Shown here: in pieces, positions 1,766 to 18,900 of the stretch
How the letters are laid out: every line of letters begins with the position of its first letter
Position numbering within the stretch: position 1 is the stretch's first letter
Assembly: GCA_021810245.1 (NCBI GenBank)
Contig: JAJZJF010000012.1
Location: forward strand, 1-32,315
From: a bacterium
GTDB lineage: Bacteria; Elusimicrobiota; Elusimicrobia; UBA1565; UBA9628
Reading direction: 5' to 3'
DNA: 32,315 nucleotides
The notes under the pieces: generated by a model
The model's input: only the letters and a program-made list of their open reading frames with translations
Told to the model about the DNA's origin: nothing
Databases searched by the model: none
Program-made: the position numbers and the translations under genes

Positions 1766-3256
1766 TCAATCGAAATATCCATCCAGAATCAGAAGGCGGG
1801 CTTTTTCTATTTCGCTGGAAAGCGGACGGTCTTGAAGATCAGGGGGGATTTGTTCCCTGAGCTTTTTAAGGAAGCTCAAAACTCCGAGGCCGGGCTTAAG
1901 AGGTTTGTGATATTCCATTGCGGAGGCGGCGCAAAGAACTTCAATAGCGATAATTCGCGAAACATTGTTGAGAATTTTTTTAAGCTTTAACGCCGCGCCC
2001 ATTCCCATGCTGACGAAATCTTCTTGATTGGCCGAAGTGGGTATGGAATCGCTGGAAGAAGGATGAGCCAAGATTTTGTTTTCAGAGGCCAAAGAGGCCG
2101 CCGCGACTTGGGCGATCATCCAGCCGGATTCAAGCCCAGGGCGCTGCGCCAAAAAGGGTTTGAGCCGCGGGGCTTGCCCTAAAATGAGCTGAAAAATTCG
2201 CCGTTCGGACATGTTGCCCAGCGAGGTAAGCGCGATAGCGGCAAAATCAAAGGCAAAACTTAAGGCCTGGCCGTGAAAATTGCCCGCGGAAATGATTTCT
2301 CCATTGGGGAACACGATGGGGTTATCCGTGACGCTCTCCATTTCGCGCTCGACCGTTTTTCTTGAAAACTCAAGCGCGTCAAAGACCGCGCCATGGACTT
2401 GGGGAAGGCATCTAAGACTGTAAGGATCCTGAACGCGGGGGTCGTTTGTTCGGTGGGATTCTCTTAAGGCGCTGCCTTTAAGAAGATGTTTCAGCTGCCG
2501 TGCCGCCTCTATCTGTCCCGGATGCGGCTTGAGCTTTTGAATTTGATCCTCGAAAGGAGTTGGGGTTCCCGTCAGGGCTTCTAAACTCAGGGCGGATGCC
2601 TTTTGCGCCGCTTCAAAAACTCGGTAGGCGAAAGACAAGGCCAGTCCCCCCACCGCCTGCATTGCCTGCGTTCCATTAATGAGAGAAAGGCCTTCTTTGG
2701 CTTCTAGCTTAATTGGAGAACATCCAATGGCGCGGAGAAGCTGGGAACTTTTCATTAATTTCCCTTTTAAAAAAGCGTTCCCTTCTCCGATCAGTAAAAG
2801 AGCCATATGGGCTTGGGGCGCCAAATCTCCGCTGGCGCCGACCGAACCTTGGGAGGGAATAAACGGAGAAGCTTGGGAGTTAAATACCCTGAGCATATGC
2901 TCGATGAGTTCTACGCGCGCCCCGGAATATCCTCGGGAAAGTTCATTAGCCCTTAAAAAGAGAATAGCCCGGGCTTCTTCTTGACTCAGAATTTCTCCCA
3001 CTCCGCAGGCGTGGCTTAAGACGAGATTTCTTTGAAGCTCAAGGAGTTTGTCTTTTGGGATTTTTTGGGAGGCTAAGCTCCCAAAGCCGGTATTAATCCC
3101 ATAGACGGGATTTTGGCCGGAGGCGATTTTTTCGACAATAAAGCGCGATTTTTTGATTGGAGAAAGACTGGATGCGGGTAAAATAGCGCTAAGCGACTTG
3201 CCCAAGAGCGGCAGGTCAAAAAGCGAAAGCTTTTTAGGGAGCCTAAATTCTTTCAA
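1766..3256 (-). CDS. hutH: Histidine ammonia-lyase
   Basis: MIO motif in SVGASGDLAPQAHMALLLIGEG; YGINTGFGSL; YSLRCLPQVHGA; AGNFHGQALSF. The ORF-track start (3409) lies inside the thiolase gene; TTG at 3256 (MKEFRLPKKLSLFDLP) or 3268 is a more plausible start. Confidence 0.85.
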   Translation of the reverse strand: MKEFRLPKKLSLFDLPLLGKSLSAILPASSLSPIKKSRFIVEKIASGQNPVYGINTGFGSLASQKIPKDKLLELQRNLVLSHACGVGEILSQEEARAILFLRANELSRGYSGARVELIEHMLRVFNSQASPFIPSQGSVGASGDLAPQAHMALLLIGEGNAFLKGKLMKSSQLLRAIGCSPIKLEAKEGLSLINGTQAMQAVGGLALSFAYRVFEAAQKASALSLEALTGTPTPFEDQIQKLKPHPGQIEAARQLKHLLKGSALRESHRTNDPRVQDPYSLRCLPQVHGAVFDALEFSRKTVEREMESVTDNPIVFPNGEIISAGNFHGQALSFAFDFAAIALTSLGNMSERRIFQLILGQAPRLKPFLAQRPGLESGWMIAQVAAASLASENKILAHPSSSDSIPTSANQEDFVSMGMGAALKLKKILNNVSRIIAIEVLCAASAMEYHKPLKPGLGVLSFLKKLREQIPPDLQDRPLSSEIEKARLLILDGYFD

Positions 3257-4388
3257 TGGCGACGGCAACGGACTCTCCCCCTCCAAGGCATATAGCCGCG
3301 ATGCCGCGCTTTTTTTCACGCGCTTTAAGCGCGTAGAGAAGAGTGACCAGTATCCGCGCTCCGCTGGCTCCCAGAGGATGTCCCAAGGCGACGGCGCCGC
3401 CGTTGACATTGACTTTTTCCGGAGAAAGGCCGGCCAGTTTAGAGACCGCTAAAGCGACGACGCTGAAAGCTTCGTTGACCTCGAAAAGATCGACTGAGTC
3501 TTTAGACCAGCCTGTTTTTTTGAGAAGCTTGTCGATGGCTCCGGCGGGCGCGGTCGTAAACCATTTCGGCTCTTGGGAAAATGTCGCCCAGCCAACGATG
3601 CGGGCGAGCGGTTTTTTCCCCGCGGCCCCTTTGGCGTTGGATAAAACCAGAGCGGCGGCGCCGTCGTTAAGCTTTGAAGCGTTAGCCGCGGTAATGGTGC
3701 CGCCGGTTTTAAAGACGGGTTTAAGCCGCGCGATTTTTTCGGGCTTTCCCCTTCCGGGTTCCTCGTCTAAAGCGATTCCGTCGACGGGAAATATCTCTTC
3801 CGAAAAAGCGCCGCTTTGTTGGGCTTTAAGAGCCCGCGCGTAACTTTCGGCGGCATGCGCGTCCTGCATTTCGCGTGTGAGGGCATGGGTTTCCGCGCAC
3901 AACTCCCCGCATTCTCCCATATGCCAATTGGAATAGGGATCGATGAGTCCGTCTTTTAAAATGGAATCAACTAAGACTCCGTTTCCATAGCGGTATCCAT
4001 TTCGCGCTTTTTCAAGTAAAAAAGGAGCTTGGGACATGGACTCCATTCCGCCGGCAGCCGCATAGTCTTCTTCGCCAAGGGCCAGAGATTGCGAAGCCAT
4101 CATGACCGCCTTAAGCCCCGAGCCACAGACCTTGTTGACGGTCGCAGCCCCCACTGAAACCGGAATTTGAGCCTGGATCATCGCTTGCCGGGCCGGGGCT
4201 TGCCCCACTCCACCTGACAAGACATTGCCCATCACGACTTCTCCTAAAGCGTCTGGCGAGATTCCCGCTCTTTTGACAGCTTCGGCTAAAATCTTTCCCC
4301 CTAATTGAGGCGCGCTATAACTGGCCAGCGCTCCGTTAAGCGAGCCAATCGGCGTTCTGACGGCAGACAGAATAAATATATCTTCCAT
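3243..4388 (-). CDS. Acetyl-CoA acetyltransferase (thiolase)
   Basis: MEDIFILSAVRTPIGSLNGALAS, NKVCGSGLKAVMMASQSL, GGMESMSQAPFLL, NVNGGAVALGHPLGASGARILVTLL, CLGGGESVAVAIERI. Confidence 0.93.
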   Translation of the reverse strand: MEDIFILSAVRTPIGSLNGALASYSAPQLGGKILAEAVKRAGISPDALGEVVMGNVLSGGVGQAPARQAMIQAQIPVSVGAATVNKVCGSGLKAVMMASQSLALGEEDYAAAGGMESMSQAPFLLEKARNGYRYGNGVLVDSILKDGLIDPYSNWHMGECGELCAETHALTREMQDAHAAESYARALKAQQSGAFSEEIFPVDGIALDEEPGRGKPEKIARLKPVFKTGGTITAANASKLNDGAAALVLSNAKGAAGKKPLARIVGWATFSQEPKWFTTAPAGAIDKLLKKTGWSKDSVDLFEVNEAFSVVALAVSKLAGLSPEKVNVNGGAVALGHPLGASGARILVTLLYALKAREKKRGIAAICLGGGESVAVAIERI

Positions 4389-5156: not shown

Positions 5157-7211
5157 TTATTTGGCGCTCAGGTGAATGATTCCGTCCCAGGGGGTGCTCT
5201 CTTGGGCCTTTTTGCAAGCGGAAAGATAAAACGAAGCGATTCCGTCATTGGGAATAATTTTTAGAAAGGTATCAAAAAGCGCTATTGCGTTGACATATTC
5301 TTTGTTGCGGACATCTTGAAGCGCTTGATTGTAAATTGGAAGGGCCGTTTTCCAGGCGCGGGGCAATGCGCCTTTTCGCGCTAAAATCTGGTAGGTCTTA
5401 ATTGGAGTTTCCTTTCCTAGGACGCGAATGATTCCCACTTCCCTGGCTTCAATTTCCGTCTTGGCTTCGGAATAGACCGCTTCGCTAATCATGGTTTTAG
5501 ATCGGAAAAACTTATTGGCTCCTTCAAGCCGAGAGGCTAAATTGACCTCGTCTCCGATGACCGTGTACTGCAGTTTATTCTCGCTTCCGGTCAGCCCCAC
5601 GGTGACGAAACCGGAGTTGATTCCGATGCGGACTTCAGGGGTATGCGCGATTCCGGCAGGAAGGTTTTTATTGAGCTCTAAAACGGCTTCCTGGATGGAC
5701 AAGGCCGTCAGGCACGCTTTGACGCGGTGAGATTTGACCTCGACCGGCGCGTTCCAAAACGCCATGATGGAGTCTCCGATATACTTGTCGACCACGCCTT
5801 GGTGATCTTGGATGACCTGGCTAAGTCTTGAAAGGTAGCGGTTTAAAAACGCGATTAAATCTTCCGGAGACATTTTTTCCGATATGCTGGTGAAATGAGC
5901 GATATCGAGAAAGAGAATCGTCATATCTTTTTTCTCGCCTCCCAGTTTTACCTTCTCGGGGTTTCTGGCGAGATTTTCGACGACCTCGGGAGAGACAAAC
6001 TGCGCGAATAAATTTTTGATGAATTTTTTTTCGCGGCCTTCGGTTAGGGACTGATAAATGGTTTCTCCGATAAACGAGAAAAGAAGAGCCGTGGACGGAA
6101 GAACAAATTCAATCCGAATTCCATTAAGAAATTGCCACTCGCAAAACCCAGTCCAGGCCAGGAAAATTCCGAGAGTTGAAAAACTCGCCACAAGCGGAGA
6201 TAAACGCCTAAGAAAAAAGGGCAGCCAGATAAACAGGAGGATGATCAAAATCTGATAATAAGGAGGCCAGGGGCGCATCCAATTGTGATGGAGTAAATTA
6301 TCGATGACATTGGCGTGATACTCAACGCCTGGGCTAGTATCTTTAAATGGCGATGGAAAATGGTCAAAAGCGGCTAAGGCCGTCGATCCTACCAAGACCA
6401 AGGAGCCTTTAAAAACATTTTTTATCTCTGGCGGCAAATTGGGATCTAGGATTTTCGCAATTGAAATGATGCGGTGTGGAGACTGACGGATGTCTCGTGC
6501 GTTTAAGGGCGCCACAGCCTGATTTTCCGTCTTATAATAAGAATAAGTTGGAGGATTGAAATTGATGAAAAAATATTGTTCGGAGGCGTTCCGTGGAATA
6601 ATTGAATTGAGAGGTTTTCCAGTAAAAATCGTATAGGCTGGAACCTCAAGGGCTTCTGCGCTTAAATTAGTTTCCGGATTTTTTATAGAAGAGTGGAAAA
6701 GGCGGAATCTCCGGATATGTCCATCGGCGTCGATATCGTCTCCAATTGAGACGTATCCAAAGTTTTTGACAACATTGAGTAGCGGAGAAATGGGCAAGGT
6801 CAAAGCGCTTTTTTTGCTGGGGTCAAAGGCATATGGCAAAACGACCGATTTAAATTTTTGGAGAGATTGGGCTAACTGCTTGTCTCCTTTTCTATGGTCG
6901 ATAAAAAGAACGTCAAAGACCAGGGTTTTAACCCCTAATTGCCTCAGGCGATCACTCAGTTGAGCAAAAACCGATCTTGGCAGCGGATACCCATAGCGCT
7001 CAAGGGTTGAGTCATCGACCGCGGCGATAATGATTCGCGGGTCTCCTCGTTTTAAAAGAGGACGATTGACCTGAAAAAGAAAATCCTGCCAGCCATTTTC
7101 TTGGCCTTTAAAAAAATTATCTTTCTTGACCCCAAATAGAATGGGCCTATACAGGAAAATAAAAACGAGGCTTAAGCCTAAAGAAAAAACGAGGCCGAAG
7201 CGGCGTCTCAT
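5157..7211 (-). CDS. CHASE2 domain-containing class III adenylate/guanylate cyclase
   Basis: N-terminal CHASE2-like extracellular region (DPRIIIAAVDDSTLERYGYPLPRSVFAQLSDRL...), three TM helices, cyclase domain MTILFLDIAHFTSISEKMSPEDLIAFLN...VDKYIGDSIMAFWNAP...VRIGINSGFVTVGLTGSENKLQYTVIGDEVNLASRLEG. Confidence 0.92.
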   Translation of the reverse strand: MRRRFGLVFSLGLSLVFIFLYRPILFGVKKDNFFKGQENGWQDFLFQVNRPLLKRGDPRIIIAAVDDSTLERYGYPLPRSVFAQLSDRLRQLGVKTLVFDVLFIDHRKGDKQLAQSLQKFKSVVLPYAFDPSKKSALTLPISPLLNVVKNFGYVSIGDDIDADGHIRRFRLFHSSIKNPETNLSAEALEVPAYTIFTGKPLNSIIPRNASEQYFFINFNPPTYSYYKTENQAVAPLNARDIRQSPHRIISIAKILDPNLPPEIKNVFKGSLVLVGSTALAAFDHFPSPFKDTSPGVEYHANVIDNLLHHNWMRPWPPYYQILIILLFIWLPFFLRRLSPLVASFSTLGIFLAWTGFCEWQFLNGIRIEFVLPSTALLFSFIGETIYQSLTEGREKKFIKNLFAQFVSPEVVENLARNPEKVKLGGEKKDMTILFLDIAHFTSISEKMSPEDLIAFLNRYLSRLSQVIQDHQGVVDKYIGDSIMAFWNAPVEVKSHRVKACLTALSIQEAVLELNKNLPAGIAHTPEVRIGINSGFVTVGLTGSENKLQYTVIGDEVNLASRLEGANKFFRSKTMISEAVYSEAKTEIEAREVGIIRVLGKETPIKTYQILARKGALPRAWKTALPIYNQALQDVRNKEYVNAIALFDTFLKIIPNDGIASFYLSACKKAQESTPWDGIIHLSAK

Positions 7212-8221
7212 TTCTTGCGGGAAGGCGAAGGTTTTATTCCAAGCCTTCCCTTGATTTGAGCTTCGGCAAAACCAATCAAGCTAATGGTGGCCGGATCTTT
7301 TTCTTGTTTAGAAAGTTTTTGAAGAGCTTTGAGGGCTTTTTTCCCGCCGGCCATTCCTAAAATAGTCACGGCTTCTTGACGCAAGAAAGGGTCTTTTTGC
7401 TTTAGGGCTTTAAGCGCGATATTTTTTCCCTGAAAATTCCCTAATTTTGAAAGAGACCGCGCTGCATTAAGGCTCACGGAAAAGTTTTTATCCTTGAGGG
7501 CTTTGAGAAGAGGCGCGATCGCCAATTTCCCTCCGGTCGATCCCAAGGCGATGACCGCGGCCTCGCGAACATTGATATCAGGGTCCTTGGTCAAAGCGGC
7601 CAAAGCGGCGGAGGCTTCTTGAGATTGAATTTGCCCCAAGGCCGCGGCGGCGGTTTGCCGAATATTGGCGTTGGGACTTTTAAGGGTATGAATTAAAGCT
7701 GGTACCGCGGCGGTCGCGTGAAGGCTACCCAAGGTTTTTATTGCTGCAAAGCGAACGCTTTCATGGGAATCGGAGATTGCTGAAATTAAGGTTGGAATTG
7801 CCGCGGGGTCGGCCAAATAGGCCAAGGCGACGGCGGCGTTTTGCCGAACCTGGGAAGATTGTGAAGAGGCTAAAAGTTGGGCGATTTGAGGAGCGTCCGC
7901 CTTGACTCTTAAAAGACCTAGGGCATGAATGGCTGAGGCGCAGACGGCCGGGTCTTTATCCGACAGCGCTTGGGTTAAAGGCGCGATGGAGGCGGGGTTG
8001 TGGTTTTGCGCGAGCGTTTGAATGGCTGATAAGCGAACAGACGGGATCGGACTTTTGATGTTTTCCAAAGCCGTTAAGTAAGGGTCTTGAGGAACTAGGG
8101 GATGAGGAACCGTGGCGGTGGGCGTTGGCGCGGCGTCGCTATTGGGCTTGGGGTTATTTTGAGCGGAAAAACCCCGCACGGATAAAGCTAAAAATACGAA
8201 AACAAACATGAAATTTTTCAT
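7208..8221 (-). CDS. Secreted/periplasmic HEAT-repeat protein
   Basis: Signal peptide MKNFMFVFVFLALSVRGFSA, then about 8 HEAT/PBS-lyase repeats (e.g. DPAVCASAIHALGLLRVKADAPQIAQLL, NANIRQTAAAALGQIQSQEASAAL). 4-nt ATGA-type overlap with the downstream cyclase gene. Confidence 0.88.
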   Translation of the reverse strand: MKNFMFVFVFLALSVRGFSAQNNPKPNSDAAPTPTATVPHPLVPQDPYLTALENIKSPIPSVRLSAIQTLAQNHNPASIAPLTQALSDKDPAVCASAIHALGLLRVKADAPQIAQLLASSQSSQVRQNAAVALAYLADPAAIPTLISAISDSHESVRFAAIKTLGSLHATAAVPALIHTLKSPNANIRQTAAAALGQIQSQEASAALAALTKDPDINVREAAVIALGSTGGKLAIAPLLKALKDKNFSVSLNAARSLSKLGNFQGKNIALKALKQKDPFLRQEAVTILGMAGGKKALKALQKLSKQEKDPATISLIGFAEAQIKGRLGIKPSPSRKK

Positions 8222-8233
8222 CGTTTTCTCCTT

Positions 8234-8926
8234 TTATTGCGTTCGCAATAAATCTATCTCGATTCTACGATTTTTTGCCCGCCCTTCTGCGGTGTTATTA
8301 TCCGCAATGGGATGATATTTCCCGTAGCCGATGGCGGATAATCTTTGTGGGTTGATTCCTTGTTTTTGAAGGAAAACTAAAACGGAATATGCGCGGGCCA
8401 TGGAGAGTTCCCAGTTTGATTTGTATTTTCCGCCGCGAACAGGGACATTGTCGGTGTGGCCTTCGATTTGAATGGGGTTGTCAAGAGTCTTGAGTTGTTG
8501 GGCGACCGCCGCCAAGATTTTTTCAGAACGCGGAGCCAGCGTGGCCCTTCCGGAATCAAAGAGAACGGCGCTGGCCAAAATGAGGCGAATTTTTTTGTCC
8601 CAAGTTTCTATTTTGGCATACTTAGACAAATCCTTCTTGTCGAGGGCTTGTTTAAGCTGGGTCACCATGGACTCTTCTTTTTCTCTTTTGATGAGCCGGT
8701 CATAATCCAGAGAAGAGCCCTTGCCGCCGAACACTTTTTGAATTTTTATCAGGGACTGTTGGTATTTGATATTTTCGGTCGTTTTTCCGCCAGATTTTGA
8801 GAGCGTAAAAGAGAACATAATCAAAAAGAAAATCATGAGGTAGCTCATGAAATCGCCATAGGTAATCGCCCATTGGGCGGATTTTGAGAGCTGGTTTTCC
8901 AGTTCCTCGTGTCGCGCTCGTCTCAT
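8234..8926 (-). CDS. motB: MotB-family stator protein (OmpA/MotB C-terminal domain)
   Basis: N-terminal TM with conserved Asp context WAITYGDFMSYLMIFFLIMFSFT; C-terminal peptidoglycan-binding OmpA motif IQIEGHTDNVPVRGGKYKSNWELSMARAYSVLVFLQKQGINPQRLSAIGYGKYHPIADN. Confidence 0.9.
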   Translation of the reverse strand: MRRARHEELENQLSKSAQWAITYGDFMSYLMIFFLIMFSFTLSKSGGKTTENIKYQQSLIKIQKVFGGKGSSLDYDRLIKREKEESMVTQLKQALDKKDLSKYAKIETWDKKIRLILASAVLFDSGRATLAPRSEKILAAVAQQLKTLDNPIQIEGHTDNVPVRGGKYKSNWELSMARAYSVLVFLQKQGINPQRLSAIGYGKYHPIADNNTAEGRAKNRRIEIDLLRTQ

Positions 8927-8935
8927 ATGGAAATA

Positions 8936-8946
8936 GGGACAGTCCC
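8936..8946 (-). repeat. REP-like palindrome core
   Basis: GGGACAGTCCC, 10 nt upstream of the motB start. Confidence 0.85.
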
Positions 8947-8954
8947 CTTTTCTT

Positions 8955-9692
8955 TCATAGATAGGATTTTAGCTTTCGCGAAATAATAACCGCGGGCGTG
9001 CGTTGGAGAATTTCATAAACCCCTTCGAGAATCATGGATTTGGCCTGCATTTCTCTCCAATACCTGATGCGCAGTTTCCCGGCGATGGGAACGCAAAAGA
9101 CGTTAGCCGTGGCGATGCCGTAGAAAGCGGTCGTGATGGCCACCGCCATGGCGGATCCCACCTGGGCCGGGTTGGCGATTTGGCGCAGGACATCGACAAT
9201 TCCAATCAATGTTCCTAGAAGGCCAAACATGGGCGCCAAAATGCCCGCCGTTCTAAAGACGTTGACCGCCTCGTTTTGCAAATCGGAGTTTTGAACGATC
9301 TCATTTTCCAGGACTTGCCTTAAAATTTCCGGGTTATTATATTCAACGGCAATTTGAGCGGCGTAGGACAAATAACCGGAAGCGACCGCTTTGTTGACGT
9401 TTTGAAAGGCGCTCATCCCGCGAGACTGAATATCTTGGGCCAAGGACATCACGGCGTCCATAATTGCCAGGCGATCAACATATGGATCGGCTGAGAATAA
9501 GTCGGCCAAAGAGGCGCCTGTTCTAATCAAAATATCCAGCGGGGTGTTAATCATCAAGGCGCAGAAAGTGCCCCCAAGGACAATTCCAATTCCATGCCAG
9601 TTGATAAAGATCGCGGGAAGCCCTCCGGTTGAGAGGCCTATCGCGGTTAAAATGAGAATCGCTCCGAGACCGATGATTGAGGTTAGTTCCAT
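8955..9692 (-). CDS. motA: MotA-family stator protein
   Basis: MELTSIIGLGAILILTAIGLSTGGLPAIFINWHGIGIVLGGTFCALMINTP; GILAPMFGLLGTLIGIVDVLRQIANPAQVGSAMAVAITTAFYGIATANVFCVPIAGKLR. ORF track start 9722; start at 9692 fits the family better. Confidence 0.9.
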   Translation of the reverse strand: MELTSIIGLGAILILTAIGLSTGGLPAIFINWHGIGIVLGGTFCALMINTPLDILIRTGASLADLFSADPYVDRLAIMDAVMSLAQDIQSRGMSAFQNVNKAVASGYLSYAAQIAVEYNNPEILRQVLENEIVQNSDLQNEAVNVFRTAGILAPMFGLLGTLIGIVDVLRQIANPAQVGSAMAVAITTAFYGIATANVFCVPIAGKLRIRYWREMQAKSMILEGVYEILQRTPAVIISRKLKSYL

Positions 9693-9732
9693 GTTGCTTA
9701 TTATATAAGGAAAGAAAAGCAAATTCCAAATG

Positions 9733-9753
9733 AAATGGGGACAGTCCCCATTT
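9733..9753 (-). repeat. REP-like palindrome
   Basis: AAATGGGGAC A GTCCCCATTT between the coiled-coil gene and motA. Confidence 0.87.
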
Positions 9754-9754
9754 T

Positions 9755-11053
9755 TTACTTGTCAGGCGGAGCGCTAAATCCTGCGTCAATGACGGATAAT
9801 ATTTTCTGAAAATCTTGTTCCAGACTCTCGATCTCGTCGTTGGAATTGCCTCGATCGTAAAGGGGGGCGCTCTGAGTCAAGGGCATTTGCGAAGGGAAAG
9901 AATTAAGCCAATCTTTGAAGATATTTTCTTGGCTCGCTAGATGATTAAGAGAAGAACCTATTTTGTTGAGCCCTTCTTTTGTTGCTTCGGCGGTTTCCTC
10001 ATTAACTTGTTTAAAATGAGCGAATGCCTGATTGAGAGAATCTAGCTGGGAGGCGACTTGGGGACGCGCTCTCAACCAGGATTCAAGTTGAAGATGATGA
10101 GAAAGAGTCTCTTTCAATGTTGCTTCGGTTTTTTTTGCTTGGAATTGTGCGGCGGCCGCCGCTTTTTGGTTTTGAAGAAGAGCTTGGCTCAGTTCCGCTT
10201 GGTAGGCAAGAAACGAATCAACGCGGCCTTCCAGATTTCTAAATTTTTTCTCCATCTTCTCAAGGGTTTCATTTTTACGCTCATTTTCTTCTTTGAGAGA
10301 ATCGACTGATTTTAATATCGCGCTTATTTGAGACTCAATCTGCCCTCTCAAGTTTTTCAGCAGAATTTTTAACTCTTCTTCCGATTGCATCTGCTTGTTC
10401 GCGTTTTCTTTAAGAACCTTTTCAGAAGCGGCGTCTCTTTCTTTTATTTCCAGAAGCTCTTTTTGTAGTTTTTCGTTTTGAATTTCTAAACGAGACAGGG
10501 CCTCTGAAAGCGGGCGGACCCGTTCTTCTATTTTTTGAGAGATGTCTTCTTGGGGAACTTCGGCTGGAGATTCTGGCTTTCTCGCTTCAAGTTCCTCGAT
10601 GCGTCTCCGGCAATAGGCTAGATTATCCTTCATCTGTCGGTCGGATTCCTCTAGCCGCCTTTGGGCGGCGAGGTTTTGAAGAAGGGCTTCGGTTTCTCTT
10701 CTCGCCGCCTCTTGGGATTTTTCCCGCTCTCTTAGGGCCACCTCGGCTTGAATGGCGCGCTCTTGCATTTGTTGAAGTTTGTCCAAGTTAGGAGCTGCCC
10801 TTAACTCCTCAATTTTCTTTTCGATGGCTTCAAGGCGAGACTCTACGCCTTTAATCAAATCGGGAGAAGGATTGCCGGGCGCGAGAGAAGAGGTGACAGG
10901 CGCGGGGCTTGGGGTTGCGGCTGGCGCAACCGGAATCGGCTGAGGCGGCGGGATATTAGGGGAGGCCTCTTCCGGAACCTCCTCAAGAGCCCGCAATGAC
11001 GCAAAGATTGAACCTTTAGGACTACTCTCGGCCATACTTATAGAATACAGCAA
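9755..11053 (-). CDS. Long coiled-coil protein with Pro/Ala-rich N-terminus, unknown function
   Basis: 432-aa ORF, extensive E/K/Q/L heptad-like composition, in the same operon as MotA/MotB. Confidence 0.75.
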   Translation of the reverse strand: MLYSISMAESSPKGSIFASLRALEEVPEEASPNIPPPQPIPVAPAATPSPAPVTSSLAPGNPSPDLIKGVESRLEAIEKKIEELRAAPNLDKLQQMQERAIQAEVALREREKSQEAARRETEALLQNLAAQRRLEESDRQMKDNLAYCRRRIEELEARKPESPAEVPQEDISQKIEERVRPLSEALSRLEIQNEKLQKELLEIKERDAASEKVLKENANKQMQSEEELKILLKNLRGQIESQISAILKSVDSLKEENERKNETLEKMEKKFRNLEGRVDSFLAYQAELSQALLQNQKAAAAAQFQAKKTEATLKETLSHHLQLESWLRARPQVASQLDSLNQAFAHFKQVNEETAEATKEGLNKIGSSLNHLASQENIFKDWLNSFPSQMPLTQSAPLYDRGNSNDEIESLEQDFQKILSVIDAGFSAPPDK

Positions 11054-11095
11054 AAAGGCGTTTTAATCACGAAGAAATGACGAAGAAACGCTCCG

Positions 11096-13624
11096 CTACC
11101 TCCGCTGCTTTCCATTGCTTTCTTTTGCGTCTTTTTCTTCTTCCATGGGAGATTCATGGATTTGAAGCCCTAATTGCGGCGCGATGGTTTTAATGCGCTG
11201 TTCTGAGATGAGTTCAGAAACGCTTTTCCCAATTTTGTCTTGGGCCGTTTCCGCTTGTTCTATTGTCGGAGAAGAAGCTTCAATCATTTCGCTTAAGACT
11301 CCCCAAGCCTTTTCCGACAGGTTTTGCTTGATGGCTTCTACCACGCTTTGAGGACCCTCGTGGAGGGCCGCGCTCCACTCTTGATAGGTGACCAAGGACA
11401 AAAGGTACGACCATTCTTGGGGCGTGAGTTTTGAAAGATCCTCGATGAAAAAGACCCTCTTTCTCAATTCCTCGGCGAGGGCGGCGTTTTGAGCGCGCAC
11501 GGCTTCAAGCATTTCATGCCGCCTTTTCTGGCTGGCCGCCGACATGAGTTCAGCCAGGTAATGAACTCCTCCCACGGCGCCGGACAGACGCCTTTCCAAC
11601 TCTTCTTTGAGGTTGACGATAATTTCAGGATCGATAAAACGCGGCCTGGCTAATTGACTGATGACGGAACTGGCCAGTTCCGGCGGAAGGGCCTCGATGA
11701 GTTTCTTAGATACTTCCGGAGCCAAACGAGAGGCGACAATGGCGATATTTTCAGCCGGTTCCGGCAGGAGCATTTGAGCCAATGTCTCGACTTGCTCTAT
11801 TCTAACTTCGAACATGATTGGCGCGTTTTTGCTTTCTTCCGCATTTTCTCCTGATCTTTGTTCTCCAATCATCAGAGTATTGCGTCCTAAAACACCTCCC
11901 GAGCCTTCCCCACTTTCGCTTTCAAGCCCTTTCATGTCCATTGAAATTTGCTGAGCCTGGACATTAGCCATCATTCTCATGGCATCGGCAATCTTGATGA
12001 ACCCGACGGCGATGACAACGAGAGCCATAAAAAAGAGAAAGCCGGTCAGGATATACCTTAGGAGCATCCCGGCTGTTTGGGGCGAATACCACACCGTTTT
12101 CCAAATCGGCGAAAATTCTGTGTGGACGACGGTCAGAGAATCCCCTCTCTTAGGATTGAGATTGAGAAGGTCCGCCGTAATTTTCCCGATTTCGGAACTG
12201 CGATTGCCTTTGACGGAGTTGTCTAAAATTAACGTCACATCTAGGCGTTTGACAAAGTTGGAGGGGAAAGAATCTTCCTTTTTATAGCCTTTCATTTGTG
12301 GCGGCGGCGCGGGCATGACCGGGCCGCCGGAATCAAGAGGAACCCCGGGCAAAAGTTCTTCCGGACGCGCGGATTTGCTCGGTTCTTGCCAAAGGTAGGG
12401 CAAGCCCGATGTTTTGGTGGTCGTGATGCTGGCCCCTTCGGTTTTAAAACTTTCCGTTTTCGTAAAATCAAGGGTTGCATTGATAATGACCTTGGCGCGA
12501 TTAGGGCCCAGGATATTGAGCAGAACTCCGTCTACCTTTGTTTCGAGAGATTTTTCAAATTTAGATTTTTCAAGAAAAGGAACCACTGTTTGCGCTTGGA
12601 TGGGCTTTGGGATCAAAGAAAGGCTAAGCAATCCAAGAAAGGCCAAAGTCAGCCGCATCGGATTTGAACGCGCGGGGCGCCTAGCCTTGAGCGGAATTCG
12701 CACCCAGAAAGTGGATCCATGCCCGAGCCCGCGACTGTCGACGCCGATTTCTCCGCCGTGAGCCTGGACGATTTCTTGGGCAATAGCCAGCCCCAAGCCC
12801 CAGCCGCCCTTTCGAGCTTTTTCGTCTTTGATATGTTTGGATTGATAGAATTTCTCAAAAATTTTCCGGCGCTCTGTTGGGTGAATTCCAGGTCCGTTGT
12901 CTTGAACGGAAATCATCGCCATTCCCCCCGCAACCTCGGCTCTGAGTTCGACTCGCCCCCCCGCGGGAGTAAATTTAACGGCGTTTCCTAGGAGATTGGT
13001 CAATACCCGCCAAATACGGTAGCGGTCGGCGGTGATGCTAATTCCCGGCGGAGGTTCCCGAACGGAGAGAATGACGCCTTTGTTTGAGGCTCCGGGGGCC
13101 AGTGTCGCCCCCACTTCTTGAATGAGCCCCGCCAGATCAAAGGGAGACATTTCCATGCGGAATTTTCCCGCCTCGATGACGGCGAGATCGGTGAGATCTC
13201 CCATCAGATGGTTGATTTGTCTCGTCGCGGTCAAAATCATTTTAGAGAGGACCTGTTCTTTGGGCCCCAAATTTTTATTTCGCGAGAGTATATCGCTGTA
13301 TCCCGTGATCGCGGTCAAAGGATTGCGGATGTCATGAACCGCCATTGATAAAAACTTCATCTTGAGATTATTGAGCCGAGCGAGTTCTTCATTATTCATT
13401 TGAAGGCGCAGGGACAAAGCTTCCAATTCTTGAGCTTTTTTCCCCAATTGGCTTTTGGCGACGGCGATTTGAGTCATGAACTTGGTAAACATAAGGTTAT
13501 TTCCCCTTTGCTTTGCGAAATAGCGATTGGATTGCGTGAACTCCATGACCCGGCTGACCACAAACATCAAAGCCCCCAGGACAATAAAGAGGCTTGGAAT
13601 AAAAACCAAGGCAATCATGTCCAT
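11096..13624 (-). CDS. Fused ORF: sensor histidine kinase (HisKA-HATPase) joined to a truncated FliF-like C-terminal domain, TM and FliG-like domain
   Basis: H box AVHDIRNPLTAITGYSDIL, N box LTNLLGNAVKFTPAGG, G boxes VQDNGPGI/GGWGLGLAIAQEIV; then MRLTLAFLGLLSLSLIPKPIQAQ (signal peptide-like, ATG at 12658), FliF-C-like EKSLETKVDGVLLNILGPNRAKVIINATLDFTKTESFKTEG, TM YILTGFLFFMALVVIAVGFI, FliG-like NIAIVASRLAPEVSKKLIEALPPELASSVISQLARPRFIDPEIIVNLKEELERRL. Could be two genes (about 12659-13624 and 11096-12658). Confidence 0.8.
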   Translation of the reverse strand: MDMIALVFIPSLFIVLGALMFVVSRVMEFTQSNRYFAKQRGNNLMFTKFMTQIAVAKSQLGKKAQELEALSLRLQMNNEELARLNNLKMKFLSMAVHDIRNPLTAITGYSDILSRNKNLGPKEQVLSKMILTATRQINHLMGDLTDLAVIEAGKFRMEMSPFDLAGLIQEVGATLAPGASNKGVILSVREPPPGISITADRYRIWRVLTNLLGNAVKFTPAGGRVELRAEVAGGMAMISVQDNGPGIHPTERRKIFEKFYQSKHIKDEKARKGGWGLGLAIAQEIVQAHGGEIGVDSRGLGHGSTFWVRIPLKARRPARSNPMRLTLAFLGLLSLSLIPKPIQAQTVVPFLEKSKFEKSLETKVDGVLLNILGPNRAKVIINATLDFTKTESFKTEGASITTTKTSGLPYLWQEPSKSARPEELLPGVPLDSGGPVMPAPPPQMKGYKKEDSFPSNFVKRLDVTLILDNSVKGNRSSEIGKITADLLNLNPKRGDSLTVVHTEFSPIWKTVWYSPQTAGMLLRYILTGFLFFMALVVIAVGFIKIADAMRMMANVQAQQISMDMKGLESESGEGSGGVLGRNTLMIGEQRSGENAEESKNAPIMFEVRIEQVETLAQMLLPEPAENIAIVASRLAPEVSKKLIEALPPELASSVISQLARPRFIDPEIIVNLKEELERRLSGAVGGVHYLAELMSAASQKRRHEMLEAVRAQNAALAEELRKRVFFIEDLSKLTPQEWSYLLSLVTYQEWSAALHEGPQSVVEAIKQNLSEKAWGVLSEMIEASSPTIEQAETAQDKIGKSVSELISEQRIKTIAPQLGLQIHESPMEEEKDAKESNGKQRR

Positions 13625-13661: not shown

Positions 13662-15212
13662 TCATTTTATGTACATCTCCATAAACTTCTTGAGATCGAC
13701 GTCCTTGGGGTCCAAAGAAAGGGCCTTCTCATATGCTTTCTTGGCTTCTCTCTTGTGCCCCCAGGCGAAATAAGCGCTTCCTAGGCGAGTCCAAGCGGAG
13801 GATTCATCGGGATTAATTGTGATGGCCTGTTGGCAATCCTTGACGGCGTCGGCAAAGCGCTTTTGATAAATAGCCTGAAGCGCGGTTTCCATTTTCTTAG
13901 AGACAAATTCCGCTGGCGGCAGCAAATCTCCCTCCGAGACCTTCATCCTAGTAAGATAAGCCATCGTCTTAACAAAGTCAATATAGGGCATTGTTTTATT
14001 TCCGGAGCCTGCGGCCACCGAAGCCCAAATCATCGCCGCGCCATCGTGTCCGTCTAAGTAAGAGAAAATGGATTTTTGAGCCAAGAGGGCCGCTTGGTCT
14101 TGGGAACGAAGCGTTTTAATCTCATCGGGGCGTTCTTTGAGATCTAAGGCGTTGTTAAAAGACTCTAAAAGTTTTAACTTTTCCTTCCATTCTTGTGGGA
14201 CTTGTGCGGGATCGATGCCCAGCGCTTCTTCAAGGGCGAGCTGCGCATTGAGATAGTTGCGCCTATTGAGCTCTTTTTTTGCCGCTTCAAGATAACTGTC
14301 GGTGTAGGTGGTCAGGGGCTTTTCTTTTTTCTTTCCCGAGAAACGGTAATTGAGAGAAAATCTTTCTCCGAGACCAAAGACGGGATCGTTGACCATTGCG
14401 ACATCGGCCTCAAGAGATTTGTAATAGATGCCGGCTCCAAATGTGAGGCCTTCCGGGATATACCCGGCGCGGATGGCGAACATCCATATCCGATATTCAG
14501 CGCCGATTCCATAATCTCCGTCATCTCCATAATCAGCGGAGATGAGAAGATTGTCTATGGGGGTGATGGCAAGTCCAGTGCGAACGACTGTTGGAAGCCG
14601 GTCAAAGGTATTTTGCGCGCCGCTAAATCCATTTTGAATGACCACGCCCGCGGTGACCATATTGTCGAAAAAAGGCCCGTATTGAGCTCCGAGATTTCCT
14701 CCGTAAAGCATGTCGGAAGAACTTCCTCCAAGGCTGCGGCTGAGGCCCTGAAAAGATCCCCCCAAGGATAAATTGGGGATGATGACGTTTCTCAGTCCAA
14801 ACCCCGCGCCGTATCCGGTTTCTTGAAAGCCAAAACTTCCGGTCAGATTATTTTGAGAATCCCGCTGTTCGGCTCCGCTGATTCCCATGTTTAGGGCTTC
14901 TACGCCCCAGGCTCCTGGCATTTTTGAAAAATTTTGGGCGTAGGATAAGTCTTCATATGACGCTCCGCCGATGAGACTTGCCTGCATGGCGCTGATATCG
15001 GGACCATTGAGAAGACCGAGACCCGCCGGATTGTAATAGAGAGAAGAGGCTCCGCCTGCAATAGCGGTATAGGCGTTTCCCATTCCCATCGCGCGGGCAT
15101 CGGCTCCAAATTGAAATATCTCGTTGGGAGATCCGGCGTAGAAGCTGCTGGCAAAAGCCGCGCTCGTGAAACAAAGCAAAAAAAGGGACAGTCCCCATTT
15201 CCAAGGGAACTT
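13662..15212 (-). CDS. PorV/PorQ (UPF0164)-like outer-membrane beta-barrel protein with C-terminal TPR repeats; start codon uncertain
   Basis: GLSLFLLCFTSAAFASSFYAGSPNEIFQFGADARAMGMGNAYTAIAGGASSLYYNPAGLGLLNGPDISAMQ is a PorV/UPF0164-type N-terminus; TPR at the end (DESSAWTRLGSAYFAWGHKREAKKAYEKALSLDPKD). No ATG/GTG/TTG in frame close to the signal peptide; the longer ORF to 15953 is antisense to the transposase. Confidence 0.78.
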   Translation of the reverse strand, partial: KFPWKWGLSLFLLCFTSAAFASSFYAGSPNEIFQFGADARAMGMGNAYTAIAGGASSLYYNPAGLGLLNGPDISAMQASLIGGASYEDLSYAQNFSKMPGAWGVEALNMGISGAEQRDSQNNLTGSFGFQETGYGAGFGLRNVIIPNLSLGGSFQGLSRSLGGSSSDMLYGGNLGAQYGPFFDNMVTAGVVIQNGFSGAQNTFDRLPTVVRTGLAITPIDNLLISADYGDDGDYGIGAEYRIWMFAIRAGYIPEGLTFGAGIYYKSLEADVAMVNDPVFGLGERFSLNYRFSGKKKEKPLTTYTDSYLEAAKKELNRRNYLNAQLALEEALGIDPAQVPQEWKEKLKLLESFNNALDLKERPDEIKTLRSQDQAALLAQKSIFSYLDGHDGAAMIWASVAAGSGNKTMPYIDFVKTMAYLTRMKVSEGDLLPPAEFVSKKMETALQAIYQKRFADAVKDCQQAITINPDESSAWTRLGSAYFAWGHKREAKKAYEKALSLDPKDVDLKKFMEMYIK

Positions 15213-15952: not shown

Positions 15953-18900
15953 TCAGTGAATTACCCCAATTTTGTATTGGACGGTCGCGCCATTGGCTTT
16001 AAGAATCGCGATATAAATGCCCTTGGACACCTTGCGTCCTCCGGCATCACTCCCGTCCCAGGTGACGGTGTTTACCCCTTGTTCTCCTCCCGCTCCGCCG
16101 CCTGAAAAACTCATCGTGCGCACGAGATTTCCGAAAACGCTATAAATCTCTATCGTGACATTGCCCGGAGCGTCCAAGGTATAGACGATGGTCGCCACGC
16201 CGGAATTAGAGTTAAAAGGATTGGGGTAGGAAGAAACATTGGATATCCCGGCCGTTGATTGCGTTCCATAGAGAACGCGAATCGTGTTGGAAGGCGAGCT
16301 TTGCACCCCCGCTCCGTTGACCGAACTGACACGAAACAGCAGAGTCCCTTGCGGCGGGTTATTGAATAAGAAGGGAGATGCGGGAATAAAATTTGCCGAC
16401 AAGGTCCCGTGAGGGCCGGCGACCAAGGCTGTCACCGCTCCAGTCTTGGCGTTGTACCAGGTCGGATGTTCCACATCGGAGTATTCAAGAAGGTATCCCG
16501 AAAGTCCCGAAGGCCCAGCCGTTCCAGGATTCCAATTAAGGTAAATTGAACTCGCGCCTATTTGAGCCGCTAAATTTGTCGGTGGGCCGGGAGTAATAAG
16601 GTCTACGAGAAACCCGGGACTCGTTCCCACGGGGCTTGTATAACCATAATTAGATGTCGCTTCAACTGAGACGTAGTAGGTCGCTCCGTTTGAAAAGAGA
16701 AGTCCCGTTGCCGTGAAACTCGAGGCGTTAAGCGGAATCGCGGTGTAAGGCGCGACATCCACTCCGCCCGGAGTCGTTCCTACGGCGTAGGCCGCGCTGG
16801 AGATGGAGCCGACCGAGACAGTTGAATACCAGATAAAAGTGACCGAGTCAAAAGAACTGGTGTAGCTTCCGTTTGGAAGCGTCACCAGCGGTTGCGTTGG
16901 AGTTTTGGCGTTTAGAATCGGCGCCAAAGCCGAGACAAAAGGAAGACTTGAGCCAGACACGGTGTCTGGCGGCGCGACTGTAAAGTTTGAGGCTCCGGCC
17001 AAAGATATTCCAATAGTGTCTCCTGGAGTCGCGTTGATGTCGATAGTGAGCGTCACGAAATAATTTAAGGGCGTGACGTTCGTGATTTGAGGATTAAAAA
17101 ACGCGATATTGGCGAGTCCCGAGATAAATGTTCCACTTCCAATTAAGACATCGCTTGAGTCCCAAACGCCGTTGCCGTCGGAATCGGCGTAAACTTTTAC
17201 GGCGTCAATTCCAGAATCAGGGAGACTCCCATCTCTCGATATCGCGATATTAGTCCATGTTACTGAACTGCGCAGAGTTGAGACCGTGATCTCCGCCGCC
17301 AGAGCTTCTTGAGCTTGCACGACTCCCGCGGGGTTGATTAGAGATGTTCCCGATGGAGTCATGATGTCAGGCTCTTTTGTGATAGGAACGACGCTTGAGT
17401 TCGCGGGAAAAGTCGTCGTTGATGGGACAATAAAGTTGGGCGCATTCACGCTTAGATCGCTGGTCGTGGTCACGGCTACGCCGAAGGTATGATAATAATC
17501 GGCAGTGGAGCTAATATCAACCGCCATTATTAAACGAATTGGGGTTGTGCTGACGTTTAAGGGATTGGTGAGGCTTAAAACCGCGGCGCCTCCGACAAAC
17601 GGGTAGTTCGCGGCGGCAAGCAAAGGGTCTTGCGAAACGCTGAGGATTCCATTTCCGACTGCGTCTTGATAAATCTCCGCGCGCGAAATATCCAAACTCG
17701 TCGCGGTTCCTGAAGACTGAATTGTCAGAGCGCTCAGAGCCAAGGCGTATTGCGTGGTGTTGAGCGTCAAATTAAGCATTTGCTGGTTGGTCGCGCCCTG
17801 CATGAGACTTGACGGCGCCTCATCTTGCCCCGATACAAAAAGCCCCGCCTGAGTGGCGGTAATGGGCGAGGTTGAGGAATCAATAGGAAAAGTTCCGGAG
17901 ATACTCGTTCCGGGGTTTGTCAGAGTAATGGAGAGACTGCTTTGAATTCTCCCTCCCAAAGTGTCGCCGGTAACGGCCGTTGGGCTAATATCGTAGGTGA
18001 CAAAATAGACGTAGGTCGTTCCGGCATAAAGCGTTTGAGTCGAAAAATTAATTTGAGCGACGCCGTTTGTGAATTGCGCCGACCCCAGGAAATTGAAAAT
18101 AGCGGGGTCAAAAGCTTCGGGCGGGTTCGGATCCTGCCAGAATTTTACGGAGGAAACGTCGGTGTCATGACCAATTCCAAGACGATTGACGGAAATCCCC
18201 GCAAATGCCGTGTTCTGGGTATTGACGTTAAAACTCGCTTTCAAAACGGTGTAGTTGGAAATGCCTTGAAGGAAACTTGCAGGCGCGAGATTGGCTCCCA
18301 CGATTGAGAGAGTGTTGAGATTTTCAACCGTCATCGTGGAAGATGCCACCGGAGTGCTCAAAAAGACCACGGTGTCAAGAGTGTCAATGAGCTGGACATC
18401 TGTGGTTGTGGTTACCGCGATTTGCATGGTGTCGCCCAAAGCGGCGTTGACGGAAAGATTAATGACCGCAAAATAATAGATGGGCGTTTCATTGACGGTG
18501 TCTGAGGCCGCGGGCGCGGTGAAAGCGACAGTCGCGACTCCGTTAGTAAATGAGTCATTTCCTGATGAAACGAGCCCGTCTACTCCCGGATCGTAGATTC
18601 CATTGTTGTCGTTATCGCGATAGAGAGAAATCGAGCTAATGTCATTAGAGGGCGCGGTTCCCTGAAGATGAAAAACAATTTTTGAAAGAGTGCTCGTTCC
18701 GGGTGTGGTGGCGGGAACTTGAAATTTCAGAGCCAGCATTGAAATTCCGGTTGTTCCGGGAGAGTCATATGACGGAGCTTGGCTGACTGGAGTGACGTCT
18801 AAATTGTTGGGGCCGTCGACTATGGTCGCCGTGCTTGAAATCAAGGGGTAAATATTTTTCTGGCCGCCGCTAGCTGAATAGCCGCTAGAAAACACAAATG

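Follow-up and report, generated by a model that had tools for sequence, protein, structure and literature searches.

A flagellar-type rotor and stator encoded with PorV-type and giant surface proteins in flagellum-free Elusimicrobiota

In flagellar motors, MotA5B2 stators rotate under ion flow and push on FliG_C; the RBM3 and beta-collar of FliF form the part that builds the S-ring, with RBM3 able to form large rings, and the cytoplasmic tail of FliF together with FliG_N joins FliF to FliG. Laboratory constructs in which the two proteins are joined have been made inside the flagellum of Salmonella and Vibrio (PMC11481574, PMC9389320), and a passage of the latter that cites Sakai 2019 describes an engineered FliF-FliG fusion-deletion rotor that turns in Salmonella. 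The type IX system has been described as specific to Bacteroidota (PMC7463736, PMC7906972), and its motor, GldLM, as not homologous to MotAB (PMC13104615). The Agl-Glt machinery of Myxococcus moves surface contacts with a MotAB-family motor outside flagella; AglRS belongs to the generic (GIT) clade (PMC12505986), and the machinery is described without FliF or FliG (PMC13104615).

Here we analyse a stretch of 32,315 nucleotides (the window), which is an entire contig (C34) of an Elusimicrobiota genome of 2.03 Mb in 152 contigs that is 93.65% complete. Its motor module shares with the flagellar motor a full-length stator of MotAB/PomAB type, including the MotA prolines and the MotB Asp, as well as the RBM3, beta-collar and TM2 of FliF and the M and C domains of FliG, but differs in having no export gate, rod, hook or FliM/N, and in joining FliF and FliG in one protein with a fused histidine kinase, in an operon that also encodes a PorV-type barrel and a giant protein. 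With type IX secretion and gliding in Bacteroidota it has in common a SprA homologue, the PorV-type barrel, CHU_C and type A sorting domains, giant surface proteins and, as expected here, an ion-driven motor of 5:2 type, whereas MotAB and FliFG replace GldLM and SprA lies outside the operon. Unlike the motor of Agl-Glt, its MotA is flagellar-type and comes with a FliG rotor; like the engineered fusions, it joins the C-terminal part of FliF to FliG, but the fusion is natural, shorter and flagellum-free.

The module lies in a minus-strand gene series that runs from 24610 to about 5157 with gaps of -4 to 42 bp, in the order giant protein, PorV/TPR protein, rotor fusion, coiled coil, MotA, MotB, HEAT-repeat protein and CHASE2-cyclase (Table 1). 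Comparison of loci indicates that the last two genes are retained within the same genus, and their products are accessory. The window also encodes an aromatic amino acid lyase (1766-3409, 581 bits) that has no relation to the motor module.

Table 1. Coordinates of the features of the module in the window
Feature	Position	Strand	Evidence and remarks
CHASE2-nucleotide cyclase	5157..7211	-	Pfam; gene overlaps HEAT gene
Exported HEAT-repeat protein	7208..8221	-	ORF list and Pfam; part of the operon, separated by 12 bp
MotB-type stator subunit (ion-binding Asp25; peptidoglycan-binding OmpA domain)	8234..8926	-	
MotA-type stator subunit	8955..9692	-	Pfam/NCBIfam, PDB match
Coiled-coil protein, 432 aa, predicted cytoplasmic	9755..11053	-	ORF
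Rotor fusion ORF, 842 aa	11096-13624	-	Pfam and structure-library profiles
FliG middle (11576-11788) and C-terminal (11192-11503) domains	11192..11788	-	FliG_M, FliG_C, PDB
FliF-like part (RBM3, beta-collar, TM2)	11990..12586	-	FliF_C, profile, hhalign
Signal-peptide-like TM ahead of FliF-like part	12590-12658	-	
Histidine-kinase part (HisKA and HATPase) of rotor fusion	12686..13489	-	Pfam; residues 88-313
N-terminal TM of rotor fusion, residues 1-25	13550-13624	-	
PorV/PorQ-type outer-membrane barrel with C-terminal TPRs	13662..15170	-	PorV_fam, PDB PorV
Giant secreted/surface protein, 2885 aa	15953..24610	-	DUF6242 repeats, Ig/fn3, C-terminal FlgD_ig-like (residues 2807-2867)

Pfam and PDB matches bear out the original prediction of MotA and of a MotB with an ion-binding Asp and an OmpA domain, and identify the pair as a full-length stator. 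MotA scores 79 bits with PF01618 and is covered over its entire length by the alignment to solved MotA/PomA (E 3e-27); its reading frame is open to 9722, with the first ATG at 9692. MotB contains MotB_plug (38 bits) and OmpA (82 bits) domains and matches MotB in the PDB (E 3e-32). The equivalents of the channel prolines P173 and P222 of MotA are invariant in 32/32 homologues, and the Asp25 motif of MotB, which lies in a membrane helix in the context YGDFMSYLMIFF, is kept in every homologue with an intact N-terminus. Phylogenetically, MotA separates from the ExbB/TolQ proteins of its own genome. For the adjoining coiled-coil protein, a family search gave nothing above cut-off; many other loci have a coiled-coil ORF at the equivalent position, and the gene is fast-evolving, with a dN/dS above that of its neighbours. 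At five loci from other classes of the phylum (L117, L118, L120, L121, L124), a TPR-like ORF of 1.6-1.9 kaa replaces the coiled coil after the FliFG gene.

The rotor protein had been placed at 11096-12658. FliF and FliG segments do lie there, with strong support from HMM and structure profiles, but the real ORF extends to 13624 and begins with a histidine kinase. Pfam scores are 49.7 bits for HisKA, 96 for HATPase_c, 25.7 for FliF_C (cut-off 23.8), 42 for FliG_M and 50.6 for FliG_C. A family profile built from 16 homologues matches FliG structures (1lkv, E 9e-55) and residues 227-506 of Salmonella FliF (6scn, E 3.5e-13), and hhalign aligns the family with residues 111-323 of E. coli FliG (E 9.8e-16) and with the beta-collar region of E. 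coli FliF, including a conserved KRGDSL motif (E 3.8e-8). The FliF part had also been thought too short for the ring-building domains: RBM1 and RBM2 are indeed missing, as are the cytoplasmic tail of FliF and FliG_N, but RBM3 and the beta-collar are present, along with TM2, FliG_M and FliG_C. Direct fusion of FliF to FliG may make the tail and FliG_N unnecessary. The FliM-binding EHPQ motif of FliG_M is not conserved, which fits the absence of FliM. Genomes from other families retain the kinase-rotor frame (809-840 aa) with 33-40% identity, so the fusion is no assembly artefact. A structure model of the rotor fusion, for which the alignment consisted of only three close sequences, had a pLDDT of 40.7, too low to be of use.

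Upstream of the rotor, the module extends beyond the original prediction to the PorV and giant surface-protein genes; two further module copies and a link to SprA, elsewhere in the genome, likewise go beyond that prediction. The window PorV protein scores 65.6 bits with NCBIfam PorV_fam, under the cut-off of 90, and its orthologues at two other loci score above it (112 bits for L062, 90.3 for L064); the family profile matches PorV in the PDB (6h3i_F, E 1.8e-19), a structure in which PorV and SprA are partners. The ORF opens at 15953, and its first ~250 codons, which lie in a repeat-rich stretch, are probably non-coding. A dispersed palindrome, AAGGGGACAGTCCCCTT, which is REP/MITE-like, has 16 matches in the window at up to 2 mismatches against 0.01 expected, with copies at 8933, 9735, 13641, 15182, 15720, 15895, 15929, 24703, 25098, 25797 and 25841, mostly in intergenic gaps of the operon and within the 5' portion of the PorV ORF; it is also present in two same-genus loci (L045, L047) and in L013.

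The FlgD_ig-like C-terminus of the giant protein scores 26.8 bits against a cut-off of 27, with orthologues at 30.5 and 30.8, and orthologous giant-protein C-termini occupy the equivalent position in other genomes. At sister loci, CHU_C was matched in surface proteins of the neighbourhood with 32.6 and 39.4 bits (cut-off 27), as was TIGR04183, a type A sorting domain, with 30 bits (cut-off 23). A SprA-like protein of ~1,800-1,900 aa occurs in 55/57 genomes and as a single copy in the genome of the window, outside the module (G000:C134). The SprA family profile matches SprA in the PDB (E 1e-23); a phmmer search of the PDB with one SprA-like protein gave no match. SprA is commoner than the module, and two genomes (G048, G054) have SprA and no FliFG. 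The GldM profile TIGR03517 matched 0/54 genomes, in a search that gave no match in the positive controls either.

The original prediction noted no rod, hook or export genes around the motor genes, and this holds genome-wide. FlhA (PF00771) is absent from the genome of the window and from 55/57 relatives (present in 2/57); the rod/hook family Flg_bb_rod (PF00460) is absent from this genome and found in 1/57 relatives, and FliMN_C (PF01052) likewise, with 1/54; flagellate control genomes were positive for all three. A non-flagellar type III gate of the FlhA/SctV kind was also not found in this genome. Because export gate, rod and switch are absent, a flagellin filament is very unlikely here, and the case that would have undone the prediction, a full flagellar gene set elsewhere with this operon as its duplicate, was searched for and ruled out. 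A single relative, G051, combines FlhA, rod and FliMN genes with ordinary separate FliF and FliG (L093:14463-17106, G051:C2) in a true, apparently complete flagellum, which makes it a useful outgroup. Another relative has an FlhA gene with rod and FliMN absent and a MotB-like gene on the same contig (L094, G045:C59); the gene could belong to a type III system or to a partial flagellum, or be a contaminant.

The genome of the window encodes FliG_C at C34 (the window), C62 (L013) and C83 (L012); a separate MotAB pair accompanies it at all three loci, and the proton-path residues of the stators are kept. Directly downstream of MotB in the C83 type lie genes for a caspase-domain protein and a DUF4384/weak FlgT_N protein (L012:6758-8353 and 5611-6606), and ORFs of equal length follow in L064.

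The FliF-FliG fusion is present in 50/57 relatives, with up to six matches per genome, or in 49/57 when G051, whose FliG is truly flagellar, is set aside. Across the phylum, other classes included, FliFG occurs in 44/120 genomes (43 without G051); it is absent from one family with small genomes of 1.3-1.7 Mb (f12). At 37 FliFG loci, the genes within 6 kb include PorV in 33, MotA in 33 and MotB in 32; two of the loci lacking PorV are real exceptions (L100, L107), and the other two end at or near the gene (L057, L108). Ten further loci from the wider phylum have PorV adjacent in nine, the tenth ending at the gene (L116), with the giant protein often upstream and MotAB seen in four. Thus, PorV is near 42/47 FliFG loci overall, in answer to the neighbourhood comparison proposed with the original prediction, and, as loci were picked by FliFG alone, the PorV and Mot neighbours are not a selection effect. 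Moreover, the FliG and MotA trees share their main clades, and these follow locus type. Congeneric copies have a dN/dS of ~0.05 (0.03-0.07 for kinase, rotor and MotA), and the module genes are under strong purifying selection.

Conservation, selection and gene neighbours all support the proposal of a repurposed ion-driven machine. With the parts, their conservation, their synteny and the absence of flagellar genes read from sequence, the reading that we favour, with some reservation, is that ion-driven MotAB rotates a ring of FliF-FliG and that this ring in turn drives PorV and surface adhesins assembled at the outer membrane, for gliding-like movement or type IX-like export. MotA and MotB would form a 5:2 stator, anchored to peptidoglycan through MotB, in which MotA pushes FliG_C at the cytoplasmic rim of the ring. 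Homology suggests that TM2, RBM3 and the beta-collar would form a ring that spans the inner membrane, reaches into the periplasm and rotates. From synteny, this ring may be coupled to the PorV-type barrel, which it would drive via the TPR regions; the barrel would carry the giant CTD-type surface protein, itself presumably exported by the class-wide SprA translocon. The output would likely be moving surface adhesins, as in gliding, energised type IX-like export, or both. It counts against this explanation that SprA is encoded at another locus and is more widespread than the module, and that the torque charges are only partly kept. In FliG_C of the window copy, R281 is replaced by K, D288 by E and D289 by M; among the MotA homologues, K, R, H or Q stands at R90 and mostly Q or R at E98 (Q in the window).

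An alternative is that the same motor, standing in for GldLM, has the sole job of energising outer-membrane export of CTD proteins, without cell movement. The operon does hold PorV, the partner of SprA in 6h3i, CTD-type cargo adjoins it, SprA is class-wide and GldM was matched in none of 54 genomes, although that search lacked a positive control. We nevertheless consider an export-only role unlikely: export in the two genomes with SprA and no FliFG runs without the module, and export alone would hardly seem to call for a large rotor ring and a stator fixed to peptidoglycan. Some export thus dispenses with the module, which more probably drives surface movement, or part of the export, than powers all export by itself. 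The kinase invites another reading, in which the rotor-fused enzyme is a sensor of surface contact or of the load on the envelope, and the module signals and does no work. Two of three locus types have the kinase fused to the rotor or next to it, with a separate adjoining gene in L054 and C62-type loci, and a CHASE2-cyclase shares the operon; however, the third, widespread C83-like type has no adjoining kinase and keeps rotor, stator and PorV, which makes a purely sensory device very improbable. Within the motor that we favour, the kinase, fused or adjoining, would take over the role of CheY/FliM-type control, and the fusion suggests that phosphorylation is the means.

It is also improbable that MotAB converts energy in the manner of Zorya or Tol/Exb, with FliF-FliG as a scaffold and not a rotor. 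ZorB models match MotB at 82 bits, a coiled-coil protein adjoins MotA and one copy (L012) has a caspase-like gene next to it, but ZorA models do not match MotA, the ZorA-type tail is missing, and MotA matches PomA/MotA over its full length and separates from the ExbB/TolQ of the same genome. Furthermore, FliG is retained as M and C, precisely the part that contacts MotA. A role in Zorya defence is rejected on the lack of a ZorA match and because the neighbours that were scanned include no ZorC/D/E. Finally, a module with rotor and stator but no genes for filament or export could be the decaying remnant of a lost flagellum, as known in other species (PMC12199754). We give this almost no credence and reject it: the dN/dS, the several copies per genome, their conservation across classes, the intact channel residues and the new conserved partners (PorV, kinase and giant protein) all contradict decay.

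The original prediction knew of no named system with this composition, and we found none in the open-access literature, nor any description of FliG or FliF in this phylum or with type IX secretion. The parts belong to known families, and it is uncertain whether the composed machine is a new kind rather than a variant. A new kind is argued for because the module fails the defining features of flagellum, Zorya and type III systems that were tested, the motor differs from that of Bacteroidota type IX, and no description was found. We tentatively suggest, at somewhat less than even confidence, a third kind of surface-moving machine: a flagellar rotor-stator core, flagellum-free across much of the phylum, that turns type IX-like adhesin or export complexes under a kinase built into the rotor. 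If this is true, a flagellar rotor and stator can work without export apparatus, rod or filament, SprA/PorV-type export would be placed outside Bacteroidota beside a different engine, and a minimal one-protein rotor (RBM3, TM and FliG_MC) would be on offer for structural work. That a flagella-free group of uncultured bacteria often carries several copies of the motor core beside type IX-type surface proteins suggests that a rotary engine has been re-used to move or export surface proteins.
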